Under the pieces are notes generated by a model. That model had not been told where the DNA came from, did not search any database, and saw only the letters and a list, made by a program, of their open reading frames with translations. The translations under genes were made by a program, and so were the position numbers. A stretch of 64,000 nt of DNA from the NCBI RefSeq assembly GCF_014652355.1, contig NZ_BMYQ01000007.1, positions 1-64,000 of the forward strand. The letters run 5' to 3'. Source of the DNA: Gemmobacter lanyuensis. Its GTDB lineage: Bacteria; Pseudomonadota; Alphaproteobacteria; Rhodobacterales; Rhodobacteraceae. Position 1 is the first letter of the stretch. Every line of letters starts with the position of its first letter. Below are positions 21,543 to 28,990 of this stretch, piece by piece.

Positions 21543-21842
21543 TCAGGCACAGAGCGGCAGCACAAAGACCGGCACGCCGGTCCAGAGCGTGGCCGCGCTG
21601 GCGACAAAAGCAAGGGTGCGCGACAGTCTTCGTTGAAACGTCGGCAGTTGGCGCGGGGCGCCCAACAGAATCCATGCCAAAAGGCCGATCTGTAGGGCTG
21701 CCGTCACGGCGACGACGGCAGGCAGGCCCACCGACAACGGGGTGCCTCCGGTCGCACAGGTCGCCCCGTGCAGACCATAAATCCCGCTGAACCCGATCAT
21801 CCACAGCAGAAGCGGCAGGCTGACAGCAAGCGCCCCCATCAT
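21543..21842 (-). CDS. small three-helix membrane protein of oxidase cluster
   Basis: A 99-residue integral membrane protein with three hydrophobic segments (about residues 4-22, 30-52 and 72-95). It starts at an ATG overlapping the stop of the oxidase subunit I/III gene (ATGA). Its position at the end of a haem-copper oxidase operon suggests a small oxidase subunit (subunit IV-like) or assembly factor, but no specific family is recognised. Confidence 0.65.
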   Translation of the reverse strand: MMGALAVSLPLLLWMIGFSGIYGLHGATCATGGTPLSVGLPAVVAVTAALQIGLLAWILLGAPRQLPTFQRRLSRTLAFVASAATLWTGVPVFVLPLCA

Positions 21843-24349
21843 GCGAAAGCCCCCGGCGCCCAAGCAGCGGTCAGGGCGAGCAGCCCCGTCACAGCGGTGA
21901 AATCAGCCCACAACTGGAGGATGCGCGCCTCTCCGTTGCGGCGCGGCGAAGTATAGCCGCGCCATATCCGCAGGGCGAGGAAACCCAGCATGATCAGGGT
22001 AATGACGGCATGCAGCAGGACATGCCCCGCCAAAAGCCAGACCGTGGCGCCGAAGGCATGGCTGGTCGGGTCAGGCCCGTTTCGAAGCATCCACCCTGCG
22101 GCCGCTGCCAATGCCAGAACCCCGACGCCGGTCAACGCCAGGCCTGTGCGCGGCGGCTGACTGCGGCTGATTGCCCGTACTGTCCGGCGCGGGCCGAACA
22201 TCAAGGCGAGCCCCCCGCCCCCTGCCAAGATCGGCCCGACCAGCCCCGGCGTGATCCAGCTGGGTGGGGGCCAGTTCGGCGCGATGGTCCACAGGAAGGC
22301 ATAGCCAAAGAGAAGCGATCCGAAATGCACCCCGTCGGCCAGCAGCAGAAGCAACGATCCCCACCAGCCGGGTGGATCGGGCACCTCATGGCTGGTGGGC
22401 AAGATCTGCCCAAGGCCCGCGTCAACCGGCCCCTCATCAACCTTGCGGCCCGAAGTCCATGCCCAGAAAACCGCCAGCCCGGCCACCCCGACCAGCGCAA
22501 GCGCCGACACCAGATGGGCTCCGAACAAGGGCGCAAGGAAGGACAGGCTGGTCACGATGGCCAGCAGGAACGGCAGGATCGAATTCCCCGGCAGCACGGC
22601 GACCTGTGCGGGGGCGCCGGTCGCCGTATCGACGATCAGGGTTTCCCGGCGATGGCGGTCCGCCCCGGCAAGGTACCCCTCACCCCGGGCAATGCGATGG
22701 GGCAGCGCGGGGTCCATGTCCAGCGGCGCCCGCCCCTCGATCACCGGGATCGCGCCGAAACCGTAGACCGGTGATGGCAGGGGCACAGCCCATTCCAGCG
22801 TGCCAGCCGCCCAGGGGTTCCGCCGACTGCGCGGGGCTAGGACCGCGTTCAGCCCCAGATCAAGGATCACCAGCGCAAATCCGATCGCCAAGGCAAAGGC
22901 CCCGATTGAGGCGCTGAAGTTGATCGCCTCCCATCCCTGTTCGGCCTCATAGGTGGCGATCCGGCGGCGCTGGCCCAGAAGCCCTGCCCAATGCATCGCA
23001 AGGAACGTCAGGTGAAAGGCAGGAACCGTGACCCAAAAGGCGATCCTGCCCAGCCGGAACTGCGGGTGCCGACCTGTCAGCAGCGGCAGGAAATAGTAGA
23101 CCGCAGCAATCATCGGAAAGACATAGCCCCCGATCAGCACATAATGCAGATGGGCCACGATGAAATGGGTGTCATGGACCTGCCAATCGAAAGGCACGAT
23201 GGCCAGCATCACGCCCGTCAGCCCCCCGATGACGAAGGTCGCGAAGAACCCGAGGATCCAGAGCATCGGCAGATGCATCACCGGCCGCCCCTGCCACAGC
23301 GTGCCGATCCAGGCAAAGACCATGACGGCCGTCGGCACCGCAACAAGGGTCGAGGCCGCCGAAAAGAAGGCAAGCCCCAGCTGCGGAATGCCGGTTGCAA
23401 ACATGTGATGGACCCAGAGCCCGAAGCTCAGAACAGCAAGCGAGATGGCCGCCGCAACCACCCAGCCGTAACCCAGGATCTGCGTGCGTGCCATCACGGG
23501 CAGGATGGTGCCGATCATCCCGGCGGCAGGCAGGAAGATGATGTAGACCTCGGGGTGGCCGAACAGCCAGAAAAGATGCTGCCACAACAGCGGGTCGCCC
23601 CCCTCCTCCACCCGGTAGAATGGCCAGCCCAAGGCGCGTTCGACCTCAAGCAGCACCGACCCCAGGATCATCGGCGGAAAGGCTGTGAGGATCATCAGCG
23701 CCACGACCAGCATGTACCAGGCAAAGATCGGCATCCGCGCCAGCGACATGCCCGCCGCCCGGTACCGCAGGACCGTGACCACCACCTCGACCGCGGCCGC
23801 GATGGCCGAAACCTCGATCGAGGTGATGCCCAAGAGCCAGACATCCGCCCCGATCCCCGGCGAAAAAGCGGTCGAAGACAGCGGCGGATACATGAACCAG
23901 CCGCCATCCGGCGCAAGGCCCATGATCATCGCCACGATCACCGCGCTGCCACCGAAGATATAGACCCAGACGCCAAAGGCCCCCAGACGCGGAAAGGCCA
24001 TGTCACGGGTGCCCAGCATCCCCGGCAACAGAAGGATCGACAGCGCCTCGAAAAACGGGATGGCGAACAGGAACATCATCACTGTGCCATGCATGGTGAA
24101 AATCTGGCTATAGGTCTCTGCTGCCATGAAGGCAGACCGGGGCGTGGCCAGCTGAATCCGGATCAGCATGGCCAAAAGACCGCCGATCACGAAAAACGCC
24201 GTAGCCACCCCCAGAAACAGAAGTCCGATGTCATTGTTGTTGGTGGTCACAAGCCAGCCGCGCCACCCCGGTGGCGCCGACCACACCGTGATGAGCTTGC
24301 GGTGCAGCTGCAGCGCGCGACTGCGACGGGGGCCAAGGCGCGGCGTCAC
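21839..24349 (-). CDS. haem-copper oxidase, fused subunits I and III
   Basis: An 836-residue protein. Residues to about 560 are subunit I, with haem-a ligand region IFTMHGTVMMF, the CuB/cross-link motif FGHPEVYIIFLP (His and Tyr, with the D-channel Glu), WVHHMFATG and THFIVAHLHYVLIGG. The rest is a subunit III-type multi-helix domain (HEVPDPPGWWGSLLLLLADG and later). The GTG at 24349 overlaps the subunit II stop (GTGA). The open frame continues far upstream but reads as out-of-frame sequence. Because subunit II lacks CuA, the complex probably oxidises quinol rather than cytochrome c. Confidence 0.88.
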   Translation of the reverse strand: MTPRLGPRRSRALQLHRKLITVWSAPPGWRGWLVTTNNNDIGLLFLGVATAFFVIGGLLAMLIRIQLATPRSAFMAAETYSQIFTMHGTVMMFLFAIPFFEALSILLLPGMLGTRDMAFPRLGAFGVWVYIFGGSAVIVAMIMGLAPDGGWFMYPPLSSTAFSPGIGADVWLLGITSIEVSAIAAAVEVVVTVLRYRAAGMSLARMPIFAWYMLVVALMILTAFPPMILGSVLLEVERALGWPFYRVEEGGDPLLWQHLFWLFGHPEVYIIFLPAAGMIGTILPVMARTQILGYGWVVAAAISLAVLSFGLWVHHMFATGIPQLGLAFFSAASTLVAVPTAVMVFAWIGTLWQGRPVMHLPMLWILGFFATFVIGGLTGVMLAIVPFDWQVHDTHFIVAHLHYVLIGGYVFPMIAAVYYFLPLLTGRHPQFRLGRIAFWVTVPAFHLTFLAMHWAGLLGQRRRIATYEAEQGWEAINFSASIGAFALAIGFALVILDLGLNAVLAPRSRRNPWAAGTLEWAVPLPSPVYGFGAIPVIEGRAPLDMDPALPHRIARGEGYLAGADRHRRETLIVDTATGAPAQVAVLPGNSILPFLLAIVTSLSFLAPLFGAHLVSALALVGVAGLAVFWAWTSGRKVDEGPVDAGLGQILPTSHEVPDPPGWWGSLLLLLADGVHFGSLLFGYAFLWTIAPNWPPPSWITPGLVGPILAGGGGLALMFGPRRTVRAISRSQPPRTGLALTGVGVLALAAAAGWMLRNGPDPTSHAFGATVWLLAGHVLLHAVITLIMLGFLALRIWRGYTSPRRNGEARILQLWADFTAVTGLLALTAAWAPGAFA

Positions 24350-25005
24350 GGGTTCATCCCCTGCAGAAAGGTCTGCCAGTCGGCAGGGGCATGGGCCCGA
24401 ACGGAAAACACATGCCCGGTATAGCCCCGACCGCTGAACTCGGCACTGGCGCCGGCGTAGTCTCCGGGCTGGTCCGCGCTGAGGCGCAGGCGGTTCACAT
24501 GGCCGGGGATGGCATCCAGCTTGCCCGCCAAGCGCGGCACCCAGAAGGAATGGATCACATCCACGCTGGTCAGATCGACATCGACGGGCCGCCCCGCGGG
24601 GATATGCAGCAAACCATGGGTCACAAGACCCGGCGCATCGGCATAACGGAAGGTCCAGGCCCATTGGCGGGCCTCGGCCTCGACCCGCACGAGATCGGGC
24701 GCGGGGACAGGCGCAAGGCGCTGGCCCAGGATCAGACCATAGAGCGTGAGGCTTGCCAGAATGGCCAGCGGAAAGACAACCCCCAGACCCCAGAACCAGA
24801 ACCGCTCTGTCGCGATCCGCGGCACCCGGCGCAGGGCGACCGCCAGCAGCACCATGACAAAGACGAAGATCGTCCCGCTGCTCCACAACATCACCGACCA
24901 AAGCCCGGCAATGTCGCGCGCGGCGGGGCCCGCTGCGTCCAGCGTCGAAAGATGGGTTTTGCAACCTCCCAGCCCGACAGGGGTTATGCCTGCACCCCCG
25001 ATGGC
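24346..25005 (-). CDS. haem-copper oxidase subunit II lacking CuA (quinol-oxidase type); start unresolved
   Basis: A lipoprotein-like subunit II. A hydrophobic lead (RLLAIGGAGITPVGLGGC) ends in a lipobox cysteine, followed by the family start STLDAAGP, two TM helices (about 24830-24900 and 24725-24785) and a cupredoxin domain with VDVIHSFWVPRLAGKLDAIPG. In the usual CuA loop the two cysteines are serine and the His/Met are Tyr/His (GASAEFSGRGYTGH), as in CyoA-type quinol oxidases. No ATG, GTG or TTG lies between the lipobox and the divergent gene. In-frame options are GTG 25113 or ATG 25122, which overlap that gene, or a base error in a G-run near 24998. The left end is firm; the upstream boundary is approximate. 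Confidence 0.78.
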   Translation of the reverse strand, partial: AIGGAGITPVGLGGCKTHLSTLDAAGPAARDIAGLWSVMLWSSGTIFVFVMVLLAVALRRVPRIATERFWFWGLGVVFPLAILASLTLYGLILGQRLAPVPAPDLVRVEAEARQWAWTFRYADAPGLVTHGLLHIPAGRPVDVDLTSVDVIHSFWVPRLAGKLDAIPGHVNRLRLSADQPGDYAGASAEFSGRGYTGHVFSVRAHAPADWQTFLQGMNP

Positions 25006-25017
25006 AAGGAGACGACC

Positions 25018-25539
25018 ATGCCCCCAGGAAACAGCCTGCCTGACGCCACCGATACGGTCGGCCAGGACGCCCCCTTTCGCGACAGCCGGTCGAAGGTGGC
25101 GATCTGGGGCCACCCGCTGCATGCGATGACTGTGGCCTTCCCCGTCGCGCTGACCTTCTGCGCCTTCGGGGCAGATGCGCTTTACTGGTGGTCGGGCGCG
25201 GCACGATGGGCATGGGCGGGCTTCTGGGCCTCGGGAACGGCCTTCCTGTTCGGGCTCGGCGCGGGGATCACCGGCACCATCGAGCTGTTGATCGTGCCGG
25301 GCATCCGGATCCGCGCGATGGCCTGGACCCATTTCATCATTGCCATGACGCTGCTGTCGCTCTTGGGGTTGAACTGGGGTTGGCGGCTGACCGGCCATGT
25401 CGCGGCCGTGCTGCCCTGGGGTCTGCTGATGACCGGCGTTTCGGTGCTGCTGGTGGTGGCAACGGGTTGGCATGGCGGCAAGCTCGTCTTCGATTACGGA
25501 TTGGGGCTGTCGAAGGGCAACGAAAACCCGAGAGGCTGA
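25018..25539 (+). CDS. DUF2231 family membrane protein
   Basis: A 173-residue protein with four TM helices. It has the DUF2231 start pattern (SKVAIWGHPLHAMTVAFPVA) and histidines in helices (GHPLHAM, WTHFIIAM) that could ligate haem. The ATG at 25018 has AAGGAGA upstream. It is divergent from subunit II and its last 46 bases overlap the end of the convergent CopD-like gene. Homologues often accompany cytochromes and oxidase genes. The function is unknown. Confidence 0.8.
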   Translation: MPPGNSLPDATDTVGQDAPFRDSRSKVAIWGHPLHAMTVAFPVALTFCAFGADALYWWSGAARWAWAGFWASGTAFLFGLGAGITGTIELLIVPGIRIRAMAWTHFIIAMTLLSLLGLNWGWRLTGHVAAVLPWGLLMTGVSVLLVVATGWHGGKLVFDYGLGLSKGNENPRG

Positions 25540-26006
25540 CGCAGCCAGATCGGAAAGGGCAGCCGGTCAAGGTCGGGCTTGCCCAGGACCAGCGCCAGTA
25601 CCGCCGCAACCACCAGGCACAAGAGCAGCAGCGGCAGGCCCGGCACCCATCGCGCCGCCGATTGCGGGCCCTTGGACGGGGCGGCGATGGCATGGCCGAT
25701 CCAGACATGCAGGCCAACCAGCGCCGCCACGCAGACCAGCTTGGCAAACATCCAGGGGCTGAACACGGCGCGCAGGAATATAAGGCTCGTTCCAGTGGCG
25801 ACGGTGAGCACCGCGGCCGGTGTGACACACCAGATAAATCCCCGATGCGTGACCTGCCGCAGGCGCCCCAAGAATGGCCCCCGCATGGCCCGGTCCTGTT
25901 CTGCCAACAGCACGGGCAGGGCTGTCAACCCGGCGATCCAGACCGCGAGGAACAGGATGTGCAGCACCTTGAGATGGGGCAAAAGGCCCAACATGACCGC
26001 CGTCAT
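25494..26006 (-). CDS. CopD-like / DUF2269-like four-helix membrane protein
   Basis: A 170-residue membrane protein with about four TM helices and conserved-looking histidines (LPHLKVLHILFLAVWIAGL, THRGFIW, LVGLHVWIGH). This is the pattern of CopD/HemJ-like membrane proteins. The ATG at 26006 overlaps the CtaG stop (ATGA). It probably supports copper or haem handling for the oxidase, an inference from its place between ctaG and the oxidase genes. Confidence 0.7.
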   Translation of the reverse strand: MTAVMLGLLPHLKVLHILFLAVWIAGLTALPVLLAEQDRAMRGPFLGRLRQVTHRGFIWCVTPAAVLTVATGTSLIFLRAVFSPWMFAKLVCVAALVGLHVWIGHAIAAPSKGPQSAARWVPGLPLLLLCLVVAAVLALVLGKPDLDRLPFPIWLRQPLGFSLPFDSPNP

Positions 26007-26722
26007 GCCAGCACACCCAGCCGCGCCCACCCACGCCGCGCGATCAGCGCCCCCGCAACCAGATAGGGCAGGCAGGCGGGCACCCACATGATCAGCCCCC
26101 CCAGCTGCTGGTCGGCCAGCGGCGTCAGACCAAATTGCAGCGGGGCCACGGCATGAATGGCGTAAAGCGGAACAGGGGCGAAAGTAAGCAATGCGCCCAG
26201 AAGCGCCATTTGCACATAGGTGGCCACAAGGCCGATCCCGGCGCGTCCGGTCGACTGCGCAGGATCAAGAACCCGCATCCAGAACAGCACCGCGGGGCCG
26301 AGAAGCGTGCCCTGCATGACCCAATACAGCCCCATATGCCCCATGGCCGCGTCATAGGCCGCGGGCAGATGCCAGACCCACAGCGCCAGCGCCTGAAGAA
26401 GAAACGCGACAGGCAGAGACACCCCACCCGCCAGTCGGGCGCGCATCAGCGCGTGGCCCAGCAGGGGGGCCGCAACCGCCACAAGCGCCAGATGATGCAA
26501 CACCCTGGCCGAGAAGAGCGCCGCCGACAGCGCACAGAGCGGTGAGACAAAAGCCACCGCCAGAACCCCCACCCCGCCAAGCCCGGTCGGACTGCGCCGC
26601 ACGGACAGCGCCAGCATGCCGAGCGCCAGCAAGAGCAGCGGGTCCATGTTCCACCTGTTCCACAGCGCAGCGGGGTCGGGTGCAGGCCCGCAGTAAAGAC
26701 CTTGCAAGAGTGTCGGCTCCAT
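26003..26722 (-). CDS. CtaG/caa3-type oxidase assembly membrane protein
   Basis: A 239-residue polytopic membrane protein of the CtaG_caa3 family (about seven TM helices). Family hallmarks are the histidines in VLHHLALVAVAAPLL and the WVWHLPAAYDAAMGH segment, with the GLYWVMQG region after it. It supports assembly of the CuB-containing oxidase encoded downstream. It lies 10 bases after the PQQ dehydrogenase gene, so the dehydrogenase and oxidase genes are probably one regulon. Confidence 0.8.
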   Translation of the reverse strand: MEPTLLQGLYCGPAPDPAALWNRWNMDPLLLLALGMLALSVRRSPTGLGGVGVLAVAFVSPLCALSAALFSARVLHHLALVAVAAPLLGHALMRARLAGGVSLPVAFLLQALALWVWHLPAAYDAAMGHMGLYWVMQGTLLGPAVLFWMRVLDPAQSTGRAGIGLVATYVQMALLGALLTFAPVPLYAIHAVAPLQFGLTPLADQQLGGLIMWVPACLPYLVAGALIARRGWARLGVLA

Positions 26723-26732
26723 TCCCCGTCCC

Positions 26733-28640
26733 CTATTCCCGTGGCAGACGATAGGCTACGACCTGATCGGCCACCCTTGGCTTCAGAATGGAATTGCCCC
26801 CGGCGACAAAGACGACGTAATCCTGCCCCTCATGCGAAAAAACCGCGGGGATCGACACCGAGGGCGCGGCGACGATGTCGGACCACAGTTCGCGTCCGGT
26901 TGCAGCGTCCAGCGCGCGGACGCGGTCATCCATCGACGCACCCAGAAAGACGACGCCGCCCGCCGTGACCACCGGCCCCCCCAGCGTGGGCGATCCCCAG
27001 CTGCGCAGCCCGTAAAAGCCCCAGCGCTGCGTCAGGCCGAAGGGCACCTCATACAACCGGTCGCCGCTGGCCAGATCATAGGCCGCGAATGTGCCATAGG
27101 GCGGCGCCCAGCAAGGCAGCCCAAGGCTGTTGGTCCATTCATAAAGCTCGATCCCGTAGGGGGCGCCCTCTTGCGCGTGGAAACCTGCCTCATTCCCGCC
27201 CTCGATGCTGCCATTGGTTGCCTTGCGGACCTCACCATCATAGGCATGACGGGGGATCAGGCGGATGATCTGCACCACACGGCTGCTGTTGACGAACAGG
27301 ATGCCGTGACGCGGATCGACCGCCGCACCGCCCCAGTTGTTCGCCCCCGCCGTTCCCGGCCAAAGCAGCGTGCCTTGGGTCGAGGGCGGGGTGAACATCC
27401 CGTCATAGCGGAACCGGTCACGGTCGCGCGAACATTGGCCAAAGGACAGCGCATCGGCCAACCACCAGACCTCGGGCAGGGCGTCAACCGGCACGGTGGG
27501 CGGCGGATGCGGCACAAAGGGCTGGGTTTGCGCCGCGACCTCTCCTTCCGCATCGGAGGCGGGCACAGGGCGTTCCCGCACCGGAAAGAGCGGTGCGCCC
27601 GTGCGGCGATCCAGCACGAAGATCAGCCCCTGCTTGGTCGTCTGCACCAGGGCGGGCACCTGCGCCCCTCCGCGCGGCAGGTCCACAAGCGTCGGCGCTG
27701 ATGGCGTATCATAATCCCAGATGTCGTGATGGATGTGCTGATAGGACCAGGCGATCTTGCCGGTCGCGATCTCGACCGCCGTGATCGACGTCGCCAGCGG
27801 CACGCCCTCCAGCCGGTTTCCGCCCCAATAATTTGGCGAGGGCGAGGACACAGGCACATAGACCAGCCCCAAATCCGGATCTGCCGACATCGAAGACCAG
27901 ATATTTGCCGTGCCGGTTCGCGGGATCAGATCGGCCGGAATAAAACCGGTGTCCCACAAAAGTTCGCCCGTGCGGGCACTGACTGCCATCAGATTGCCGG
28001 GCGGTTCGACCGAATAGGCCCAATCCTTGCCGGACCAGCCTATCAGGATGACATCGCCGACAATGGTTGGCGGTTGCAGCAGGGAAAAGGGGAAAACGTC
28101 GTTGGTTTCGTTCCACTGGTTGACGTTCAACACCCCGTTTTCACCGAAATCCGCGCAGGGCTGTCCGGTATCGGCATCAACGGCATGCAATGTGGCATCC
28201 ATCGTCCCCAGATAGACCCGCTTTTCGCAGGGCCCATCGGCGCCACTTTCCCAATAGGCAACGCCCCGGTTTTTCAAGGCAGGCTGGGTCAGCGCCTTGA
28301 GTGTGGATCTGGTATCATAGCTCCAGCGCTCCTGCCCGGTGGCAGGATCAAGCGCGAGAATGCGGTAGAATGGCGTCCCGAGGTAAAGTGTCCCGTTGGC
28401 ATAGATCGGCGTGGCGGACCAGACCGTCTCGGGCAGGTCGCCCGATCCGTCCGAAACATCGCCCGTCCTCACCTCCCACGCGCGTTGAAGTCTGCCGACC
28501 GTTTCGGGGGTGAATGTGGTCACATCCGCGAACTTGGTCGCGGCAAGGGTGCCGTTGAACGTATCCCAGCGCGGTTGTTCGGCCTGCACGGGGCCAGCAA
28601 GCCCGACGACTGCACCCAGCAGAACGCGAAGGCCCCACAT
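26733..28640 (-). CDS. PQQ-dependent dehydrogenase (glucose/quinate dehydrogenase type)
   Basis: A 635-residue periplasmic quinoprotein with a signal peptide (MWGLRVLLGAVVGLAGPVQA) and an eight-bladed propeller. Tryptophan-docking motifs typical of the family are visible (ALDPATGQERWSYDT, TGKIAWSYQHIHHDIWDYD). The SPNYWGGNR and HHDIWDYDTPSAPTLVDL segments resemble membrane glucose/quinate dehydrogenases. Unlike those, the N-terminal membrane domain is missing and is encoded by the overlapping upstream gene. Electrons would go to ubiquinone. The substrate is unknown; an aldose, polyol or cyclic acid are options. Confidence 0.83.
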   Translation of the reverse strand: MWGLRVLLGAVVGLAGPVQAEQPRWDTFNGTLAATKFADVTTFTPETVGRLQRAWEVRTGDVSDGSGDLPETVWSATPIYANGTLYLGTPFYRILALDPATGQERWSYDTRSTLKALTQPALKNRGVAYWESGADGPCEKRVYLGTMDATLHAVDADTGQPCADFGENGVLNVNQWNETNDVFPFSLLQPPTIVGDVILIGWSGKDWAYSVEPPGNLMAVSARTGELLWDTGFIPADLIPRTGTANIWSSMSADPDLGLVYVPVSSPSPNYWGGNRLEGVPLATSITAVEIATGKIAWSYQHIHHDIWDYDTPSAPTLVDLPRGGAQVPALVQTTKQGLIFVLDRRTGAPLFPVRERPVPASDAEGEVAAQTQPFVPHPPPTVPVDALPEVWWLADALSFGQCSRDRDRFRYDGMFTPPSTQGTLLWPGTAGANNWGGAAVDPRHGILFVNSSRVVQIIRLIPRHAYDGEVRKATNGSIEGGNEAGFHAQEGAPYGIELYEWTNSLGLPCWAPPYGTFAAYDLASGDRLYEVPFGLTQRWGFYGLRSWGSPTLGGPVVTAGGVVFLGASMDDRVRALDAATGRELWSDIVAAPSVSIPAVFSHEGQDYVVFVAGGNSILKPRVADQVVAYRLPRE

Positions 28641-28990
28641 CAGATCACCCCCCTGCACGCCGGCGTGAAAGCCAAATCCAGAAGCAGCGCCAGCGCAGCC
28701 ACCGCCATCACGATCACCAGCACGTTCTGCATCAAAAACCATGCAGCCACCGCAGTCAGCGTCGCGGCCAAAAGGGCAAGACCCGTGACAACGCCCCGCA
28801 GATGGCGCCAGGATCGCATCATCGCCGCAAGGATCGCACCCAGAAAGGCCGCACCCGCCCCGAGCAGCGCGAGCAGCGCCCCCGCCGTGCCGGTGATGCC
28901 GCTTCCCTCAACCTGCCAAAGATAGGCGGCCAGCCCCATCCCCAGCAGCGCTGCCACCATCGCCAATGACTGTAGCATCCCGCCCCCCAT
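28640..28990 (-). CDS. four-helix membrane anchor for PQQ dehydrogenase
   Basis: A 116-residue hydrophobic protein with four TM helices (about residues 6-25, 35-57, 65-83 and 87-108). Its stop overlaps the PQQ dehydrogenase start by one base (TGATG). Membrane glucose/quinate dehydrogenases normally carry a similar helical domain at their own N-terminus, so this looks like the split-off anchor and quinone-interaction domain. A start at ATG 28978 is also possible. Confidence 0.68.
   Translation of the reverse strand: MGGGMLQSLAMVAALLGMGLAAYLWQVEGSGITGTAGALLALLGAGAAFLGAILAAMMRSWRHLRGVVTGLALLAATLTAVAAWFLMQNVLVIVMAVAALALLLDLAFTPACRGVI

Follow-up and report, generated by a model that had tools for sequence, protein, structure and literature searches.

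The 64,000-nucleotide stretch of Gemmobacter lanyuensis DNA analysed here (the window; contig NZ_BMYQ01000007.1) encodes, at 21543-28990, a haem-copper oxidase with fused subunits I and III and a subunit II that lacks the CuA centre. The enzyme belongs to one clade of oxidases that have lost the CuA ligands, stand apart from the Cyo and Qox enzymes, keep their catalytic residues and are under purifying selection. It is probably a quinol oxidase by convergence, descended from a CuA-bearing fused cytochrome c oxidase; we put the probability of this reading at about 0.62.

Loss of the CuA ligands in subunit II

Subunit II (COX2) is encoded on the minus strand, its portion after a lipobox-like LGGC lying at 24346..24960 and the Cys codon at 24961-24963 (all coordinates are positions in the window). 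Its CuA loop reads GASAEFSGRGYTGH, and that of the ordinary CtaC of the same genome reads GQCSELCGKDHAYM. Alignment to CtaC and relatives bears out a preliminary description of this DNA, which had seen serines for both cysteines and Tyr/His for His/Met: the ligands Cys, Cys, His and Met are replaced by Ser, Ser, Tyr and His. The cupredoxin motif that it listed, HSFWVP, is retained, as DVIHSFWVP.

The loss is common to 45 distinct subunit II sequences, mostly from Rhodobacteraceae with a few rhizobial and Microvirga records, so that what had been described as an unusual combination in a fused oxidase is a clade-wide trait and not a one-off. The ligand patterns are SSYH (18 sequences), TNYH (6), SNYH (5), SSYF (5), GNYH (4), GSYH (2) and five singles. 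Cysteines at the CuA positions, two of which the preliminary description had said would speak against it, were looked for and occur in 0/45, and a Tyr (Tyr209) replaces the CuA His in all 45. Trp195 and Phe198 (window numbering) are invariant in the CuA-less sequences and variable in CuA-bearing relatives. CyoA has a comparable Ser, Ser, aromatic replacement (SASYSGPGF in E. coli, SSHYSGAGF in Alphaproteobacteria).

A probable single origin, separate from Cyo and Qox

In a subunit I tree of 85 rows, the 43 CuA-less rows, together with the unlabelled L102, form one clade with a Shimodaira-Hasegawa-like approximate likelihood ratio (SH-aLRT) support of 100. Its sister group is four CuA-bearing enzymes of the same family (98), and other CuA-bearing fused enzymes surround both. 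CyoB from E. coli and Alphaproteobacteria and the B. subtilis aa3-600 enzyme make up their own clade (99), which joins CtaD. A careful tree of 38 rows again places the 14 CuA-less rows together (100/100), and forcing the CuA-less rows to group with Cyo/Qox lowers the subunit I log-likelihood by 55.3 and is rejected by the approximately unbiased test (p-AU 2e-5). In the subunit II tree the 45 CuA-less rows form one clade (100/99), separate from CyoA; the CuA loop columns were kept in this tree, and the subunit I test is therefore the cleaner of the two. The subunit I tree has no outgroup root, and its CtaD branch is long. As far as these trees go, CuA appears to have been lost once here, separately from Cyo/Qox. 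Acquisition of a CyoA-type subunit II by transfer is not supported, since the subunit II tree gives a separate clade.

The preliminary description had likened the loop to that of quinol oxidases. The likeness holds for the CuA-less subunit II and does not extend to kinship, since a subunit I clade with bo3/aa3-600 is rejected and the quinol-site residues Arg71 and Asp75 are absent (see below).

Both subunits are under purifying selection, with ratios of nonsynonymous to synonymous substitution (dN/dS) of ~0.08-0.34 in 10 pairs per subunit. A lone degenerate gene is rejected on the same values and on the 45 sequences that share the loss.

Subunit I/III

The I/III gene (21839..24349, minus strand; PF00115, 458 bits) encodes 836 residues if its start is correctly placed at a GTG sharing bases with the subunit II stop (GTGA). 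Pfam gives no COX3 match in the C-terminal part (E up to 0.01). The best Foldseek match of an AlphaFold model is a Thermus caa3 chain, polypeptide I+III, over 845 columns, which supports the fusion that the preliminary description had proposed; the model has a mean predicted local distance difference test (pLDDT) score of 66.8 and was used for the fold match only, being too weak for mapping substitutions. In the subunit III part, residue 676 of P0002, presumably the position where COX3 has a conserved Glu, is Asp or Asn in the 42 CuA-less sequences with a letter there and in all 19 near CuA-bearing fused oxidases.

The window's subunit I keeps the haem, CuB and Mg ligands, Glu286, Tyr288 and Asp132 (numbered as in R. 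sphaeroides CtaD, by motif). The catalytic His residues, Glu286 and Tyr288 are kept in 43/43 CuA-less sequences, the window's included; retention of Glu286 and Tyr288 rules out an NO reductase. Arg481/482, which we take to be the haem propionate-binding arginines, are kept in all 42 sequences with a letter there. The neighbouring Pro480 is Arg in 42/42, as against Pro in 33 of 34 CuA-bearing relatives (18/19 near, 15/15 distant). Position 450 is Phe in 43/43 and differs from the near CuA-bearing enzymes, and position 265 is Gln in 39/43 and Arg in the window, where 18 of the 19 near CuA-bearing enzymes have Asp.

The K-channel Lys362, a point absent from the preliminary description, is missing in all 77 fused oxidases compared: it is Gln in the 34 CuA-bearing relatives and in 32 of the 43 CuA-less enzymes, and Met in the other 11, among them the window's. 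None of the 77 keeps N139, N121 or N207 either (Gly, Ile and Glu, respectively, in the window). Since the lysine is gone in the CuA-bearing relatives too, its loss seems to have preceded that of CuA. The window's subclade carries as its natural state the Lys362 to Met change of an inhibiting mutant studied in R. sphaeroides aa3; according to the title of Vygodina et al. 1998, K362M reportedly inhibits electron transfer in that enzyme. Repeated K-channel loss in A-family lineages is already discussed in PMC8239418.

The electron donor

With CuA gone, electrons from cytochrome c lose their usual way in, and a CuA-less subunit II beside a fused I/III makes a bypass of cytochrome c probable. The enzyme would descend from an A-family cytochrome c oxidase that had CuA and a fused I/III, with a single loss of CuA in a forebear that belonged to the Rhodobacteraceae or stood close to them. 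Membrane quinol would then reduce the low-spin haem directly, from a site presumably unlike that of bo3. Electrons would pass from the low-spin haem to the haem-CuB site, where O2 would be reduced to water, and protons would enter by the D-path, of which Glu286 and Asp132 are kept. Proton pumping is expected, and the haem types are likewise presumed. Quinone-reducing dehydrogenases would feed the enzyme via the pool, in the window perhaps a pyrroloquinoline quinone (PQQ) enzyme.

The other oxidases of the host genome favour this reading. A family scan identifies CtaD, the window's enzyme and CcoN among its COX1-family matches; the remaining one reads as NorB-like. A search for cytochrome bd gave no match in this genome and was positive in 10 of 14 controls. 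Beside the window's enzyme, these searches thus gave no candidate haem-copper quinol oxidase.

A further point in favour comes from a clade member that may already carry a name. Motifs identify five COX1-family genes in genome G445, which we take to be R. sphaeroides 2.4.1: CtaD, two fused oxidases, of which one, on a 943-kb replicon, is CuA-less and the other CuA-bearing, and a CcoN-like and a NorB-like gene. CyoB is not among them. QoxBA of R. sphaeroides is cited as a quinol oxidase in PMC3152904, with Mouncey et al. 2000 (pmid 11064196) as the source. Given this citation and a genome lacking CyoB among its COX1-family genes, QoxBA may be a member of the CuA-less clade.

Several observations weigh against a quinol oxidase. 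Judged from the alignments, no known quinol site is present in the clade: the positions of Arg71 and Asp75, shared by bo3 and aa3-600, hold Ile/Val and Leu in 43/43 sequences, and bo3 His98 is His in only 4/43. Gln101 is kept in 43/43, but also in the CuA-bearing relatives. We take these four to be the quinol-site residues of bo3; with Arg71 and Asp75 missing, any quinol site must differ from that of bo3. The Pro480 change is no signature of quinol oxidases, since aa3-600 keeps the proline. The NCBIfam models for CyoA/QoxA and CyoB/QoxB score far below their cut-offs, and a CuA-less relative (L105) passes that of CtaD_CoxA, the model for subunit I of cytochrome c oxidases; the window's subunit I falls just under it (665 vs 671 bits). 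In subunit II, His161 and Glu198 of the old CuA site are kept in 45/45, and the WxW motif retains its first Trp, presumably the residue of cytochrome c entry, in 43/45.

The alternative that survives best is that cytochrome c or another periplasmic carrier is still the donor, reducing the low-spin haem without CuA. We regard it as rather unlikely. The retained Trp, the relative over the CtaD_CoxA cut-off and the absence of a bo3-type quinol site all fit it, as does a subunit II nearest to cytochrome c oxidases (124 bits with CoxB TIGR02866, cut-off 147.7, and 70 bits with CyoA). Such a donor would, however, have to do without any of the four ligands of the entry centre and, in the window's subunit II, without a CxxCH haem motif, of which none was found; Pro480, in the haem-propionate loop, is altered as well.

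His161, Glu198 and Tyr209, invariant in the 45 sequences, together with a His at position 212, the old Met, in 35/45, might instead make up a different metal site, or a relay through the tyrosine, by which electrons enter a rebuilt CuA pocket; CyoA, unlike this clade, has Asn at 161. However, the other 10/45 have Phe, Gln, Arg, Leu, Ser or Asp at 212, and the retention of these residues may be structural. A rebuilt pocket is a somewhat weaker prospect than a persisting cytochrome c donor. We give equally low odds to the wider form of the idea, that CuA was exchanged for a new entry centre, which works alongside an as yet unmapped donor site in an oxidase without the K-channel lysine or the bo3 quinol site.

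It is similarly doubtful that the enzyme is degenerate or slow, with a regulatory or sensing role and not that of a main oxidase. The reported inhibition of R. sphaeroides aa3 by K362M would suit this, and the K362M structure 3om3 appears in the Foldseek listing for the I/III model. Subunit II has no clear start codon in the window, and among relatives its frame is broken in L102, while the subunit I frame stops early in L088. Against this, position 362 is already Gln in all the CuA-bearing relatives and is Gln or Met throughout the clade, so the lineage lives without the K-channel lysine, and both subunits are under purifying selection. A sequencing error in the loop, which the preliminary description had also named as a way in which it might fail, or an assembly error there has no point in its favour and is ruled out for practical purposes, since many assemblies contribute to the 45 distinct sequences with this loss.

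Distribution

Four overlapping samples of genomes were searched. In the family sample (394 genomes), 52 have a subunit I match at 1e-110; among the 20 loci in the matches listed, 16 are CuA-less, the window's own included, and 4 have CuA, as do all of 18 further places of the match list. The order sample (390 genomes, 44 with a match at 1e-40) gave 25 CuA-less loci, again counting the window's, and 5 with CuA among the 30 in the matches listed. At the level of the phylum (398 genomes, 23 with a match at 1e-30) the balance is 3, own included, to 17 among 20 loci in the matches listed, the Met of L191 lying beyond the alignment end. The class sample (385 genomes) was searched with subunit II, and 141 genomes match at 1e-8; the loop was read in 24 of the 29 loci of other genomes among the matches listed, and all 24 have CuA. 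Within the window's genus, the enzyme is found in 1/11 sampled genomes, this one.

CuA-less carriers include Rhodobacter, Tabrizicola, Rubellimicrobium, Cereibacter, Paracoccus, Marivita, Jannaschia, Sulfitobacter and Limimaricola, with further records from Rhizobium, Pararhizobium, Microvirga and Aquisalinus. Plasmid records account for five of the loci. RefSeq calls the CuA-less subunit II 'cytochrome B' in the four annotated plasmid records read (L147, L148, L150, L151), and surveys by name or by CoxB/CyoA models can therefore misplace these enzymes. The CuA-bearing subunit II of Roseomonas (L152) is named CoxB.

The gene cluster and its neighbours

The cluster lies on the minus strand except for a DUF2231 gene. 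From 28990, the minus-strand order is a small membrane open reading frame (ORF), a PQQ dehydrogenase, CtaG, a CopD/HemJ-like gene, subunit II, subunit I/III and a second small membrane ORF. CtaG (PF09678), the CopD/HemJ-like protein (PF03653) and the PQQ dehydrogenase (PF01011) are found where the preliminary description had placed them. The search for the same cluster in other Rhodobacterales that it proposed was run, and a core module of CtaG, CopD/HemJ-like, DUF2231, subunit II and subunit I/III recurs over 46 CuA-less loci.

The caa3-type CtaG (26003..26722, minus) is present in 44/46 of these loci. Its presumed role is CuB insertion (PMC6431628, PMC9145763). The CopD-family, HemJ-like membrane protein (25494..26087, minus) is present in 46/46, as is the DUF2231 membrane protein (25018..25539, plus), whose divergent gene sits between the CopD-like gene and subunit II and was absent from the preliminary description. 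The nearest in-frame ATG/GTG/TTG upstream of the subunit II lipobox is GTG 25113, with none between it and the lipobox Cys, and a start there would overlap the DUF2231 gene. The 106-residue membrane ORF at 21543..21863 (minus) has no Pfam or NCBIfam match; a similar stretch occurs in 37/46 loci, and it is possibly a small subunit or an assembly factor.

The PQQ dehydrogenase (26733..28640, minus) has the catalytic domain of the membrane glucose/quinate/shikimate type. Membrane PQQ dehydrogenases of this type reduce quinone. Its best NCBIfam match, TIGR03074, stays below the cut-off (538.5 vs 832.65 bits) and covers profile positions 152-783 only, the membrane part being in a separate ORF. This is presumably the 116-residue membrane ORF at 28640..28990 (minus), which has a one-base stop/start overlap with the dehydrogenase gene, would serve as its membrane anchor and resembles ORFs in L075 and L078. 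In alignment with E. coli Gcd, 253/727 residues are identical. The residues aligned to Asp466, Lys493, Arg201, Asn607 and Asp730 of Gcd are kept and that aligned to His262 is Ala; we take the Asp and Lys to be catalytic.

The preliminary description had seen in these genes a self-contained chain from substrate through quinone to oxygen. The PQQ dehydrogenase is an occasional neighbour of the core module and is rejected as an obligate partner, since a near-complete gene lies beside only 5/46 CuA-less loci: upstream in the window, L075 (85%) and L078 (79%), with downstream copies on the opposite strand in L147 (61%) and in L110, where the gene runs over two frames. Fragments occur in L096 and a truncated copy in L148. 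In four loci a molybdopterin oxidoreductase of the FdhF/YdeP type is directly upstream of CtaG, found by family scan in L100, L149 and L151 and by similarity in L082, where a contig end cuts it; in L151 the annotated end of its gene overlaps the CtaG start. Neither kind of gene was found in the remaining 35/46 loci; most of the 46 span ~12 kb and several stop close to CtaG, so that some neighbours lie out of view. For PQQ synthesis, no match over the cut-off for PqqE and no match for PqqC was found in this genome; the control genomes gave none either, and absence is not shown.

Comparison with known systems

Fused COX1-3 operons, some with PQQ dehydrogenases, and QoxBA as a quinol oxidase (by citation) are known already. 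Among titles and abstract openings, no account was found of the CuA-less fused clade or of its separate origin. The clade offers a second natural experiment, beside Cyo/Qox, on how a cytochrome c oxidase becomes independent of CuA, with close CuA-bearing relatives at hand. As a lineage without the K-channel lysine, it can also test what the K-channel is needed for; in the model enzyme, which comes from this bacterial family, changing that lysine to Met is inhibitory.

The COX operons of type a, as set out by Degli Esposti et al. 2014 (PMC4013037), have fused COX1-3, and for those of type a-II a COX1-COX4 fusion and, often, PQQ dehydrogenases are described. Like caa3 and type a, the window has a fused I+III with a caa3-type CtaG nearby. 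A PQQ dehydrogenase adjoins the cluster in the window and is near-complete at 5/46 CuA-less loci. It differs from these members in the lost CuA ligands and in the change of Pro480 to Arg. Kinship to CuA-bearing members is close, with ~50-56% identity for the closest subunit I. The gene order is that of the CuA-bearing loci L034, L035, L119 and L152, and the absence of Lys362 is shared with the 34 CuA-bearing relatives read.

The PQQ dehydrogenase resembles E. coli Gcd in its catalytic Asp and Lys and differs from it in having the membrane part in a separate ORF. QoxBA, whose two named genes and assignment as a quinol oxidase resemble the present case, is known to us by citation only. Like bo3 (CyoABCD) and aa3-600 (QoxABCD), the window's enzyme has a subunit II without CuA, and CyoA too shows Cys to Ser and His to aromatic replacements. 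Unlike them, it belongs to a separate clade, has a fused subunit III, lacks Arg71/Asp75 and the K-channel lysine, and keeps His161.

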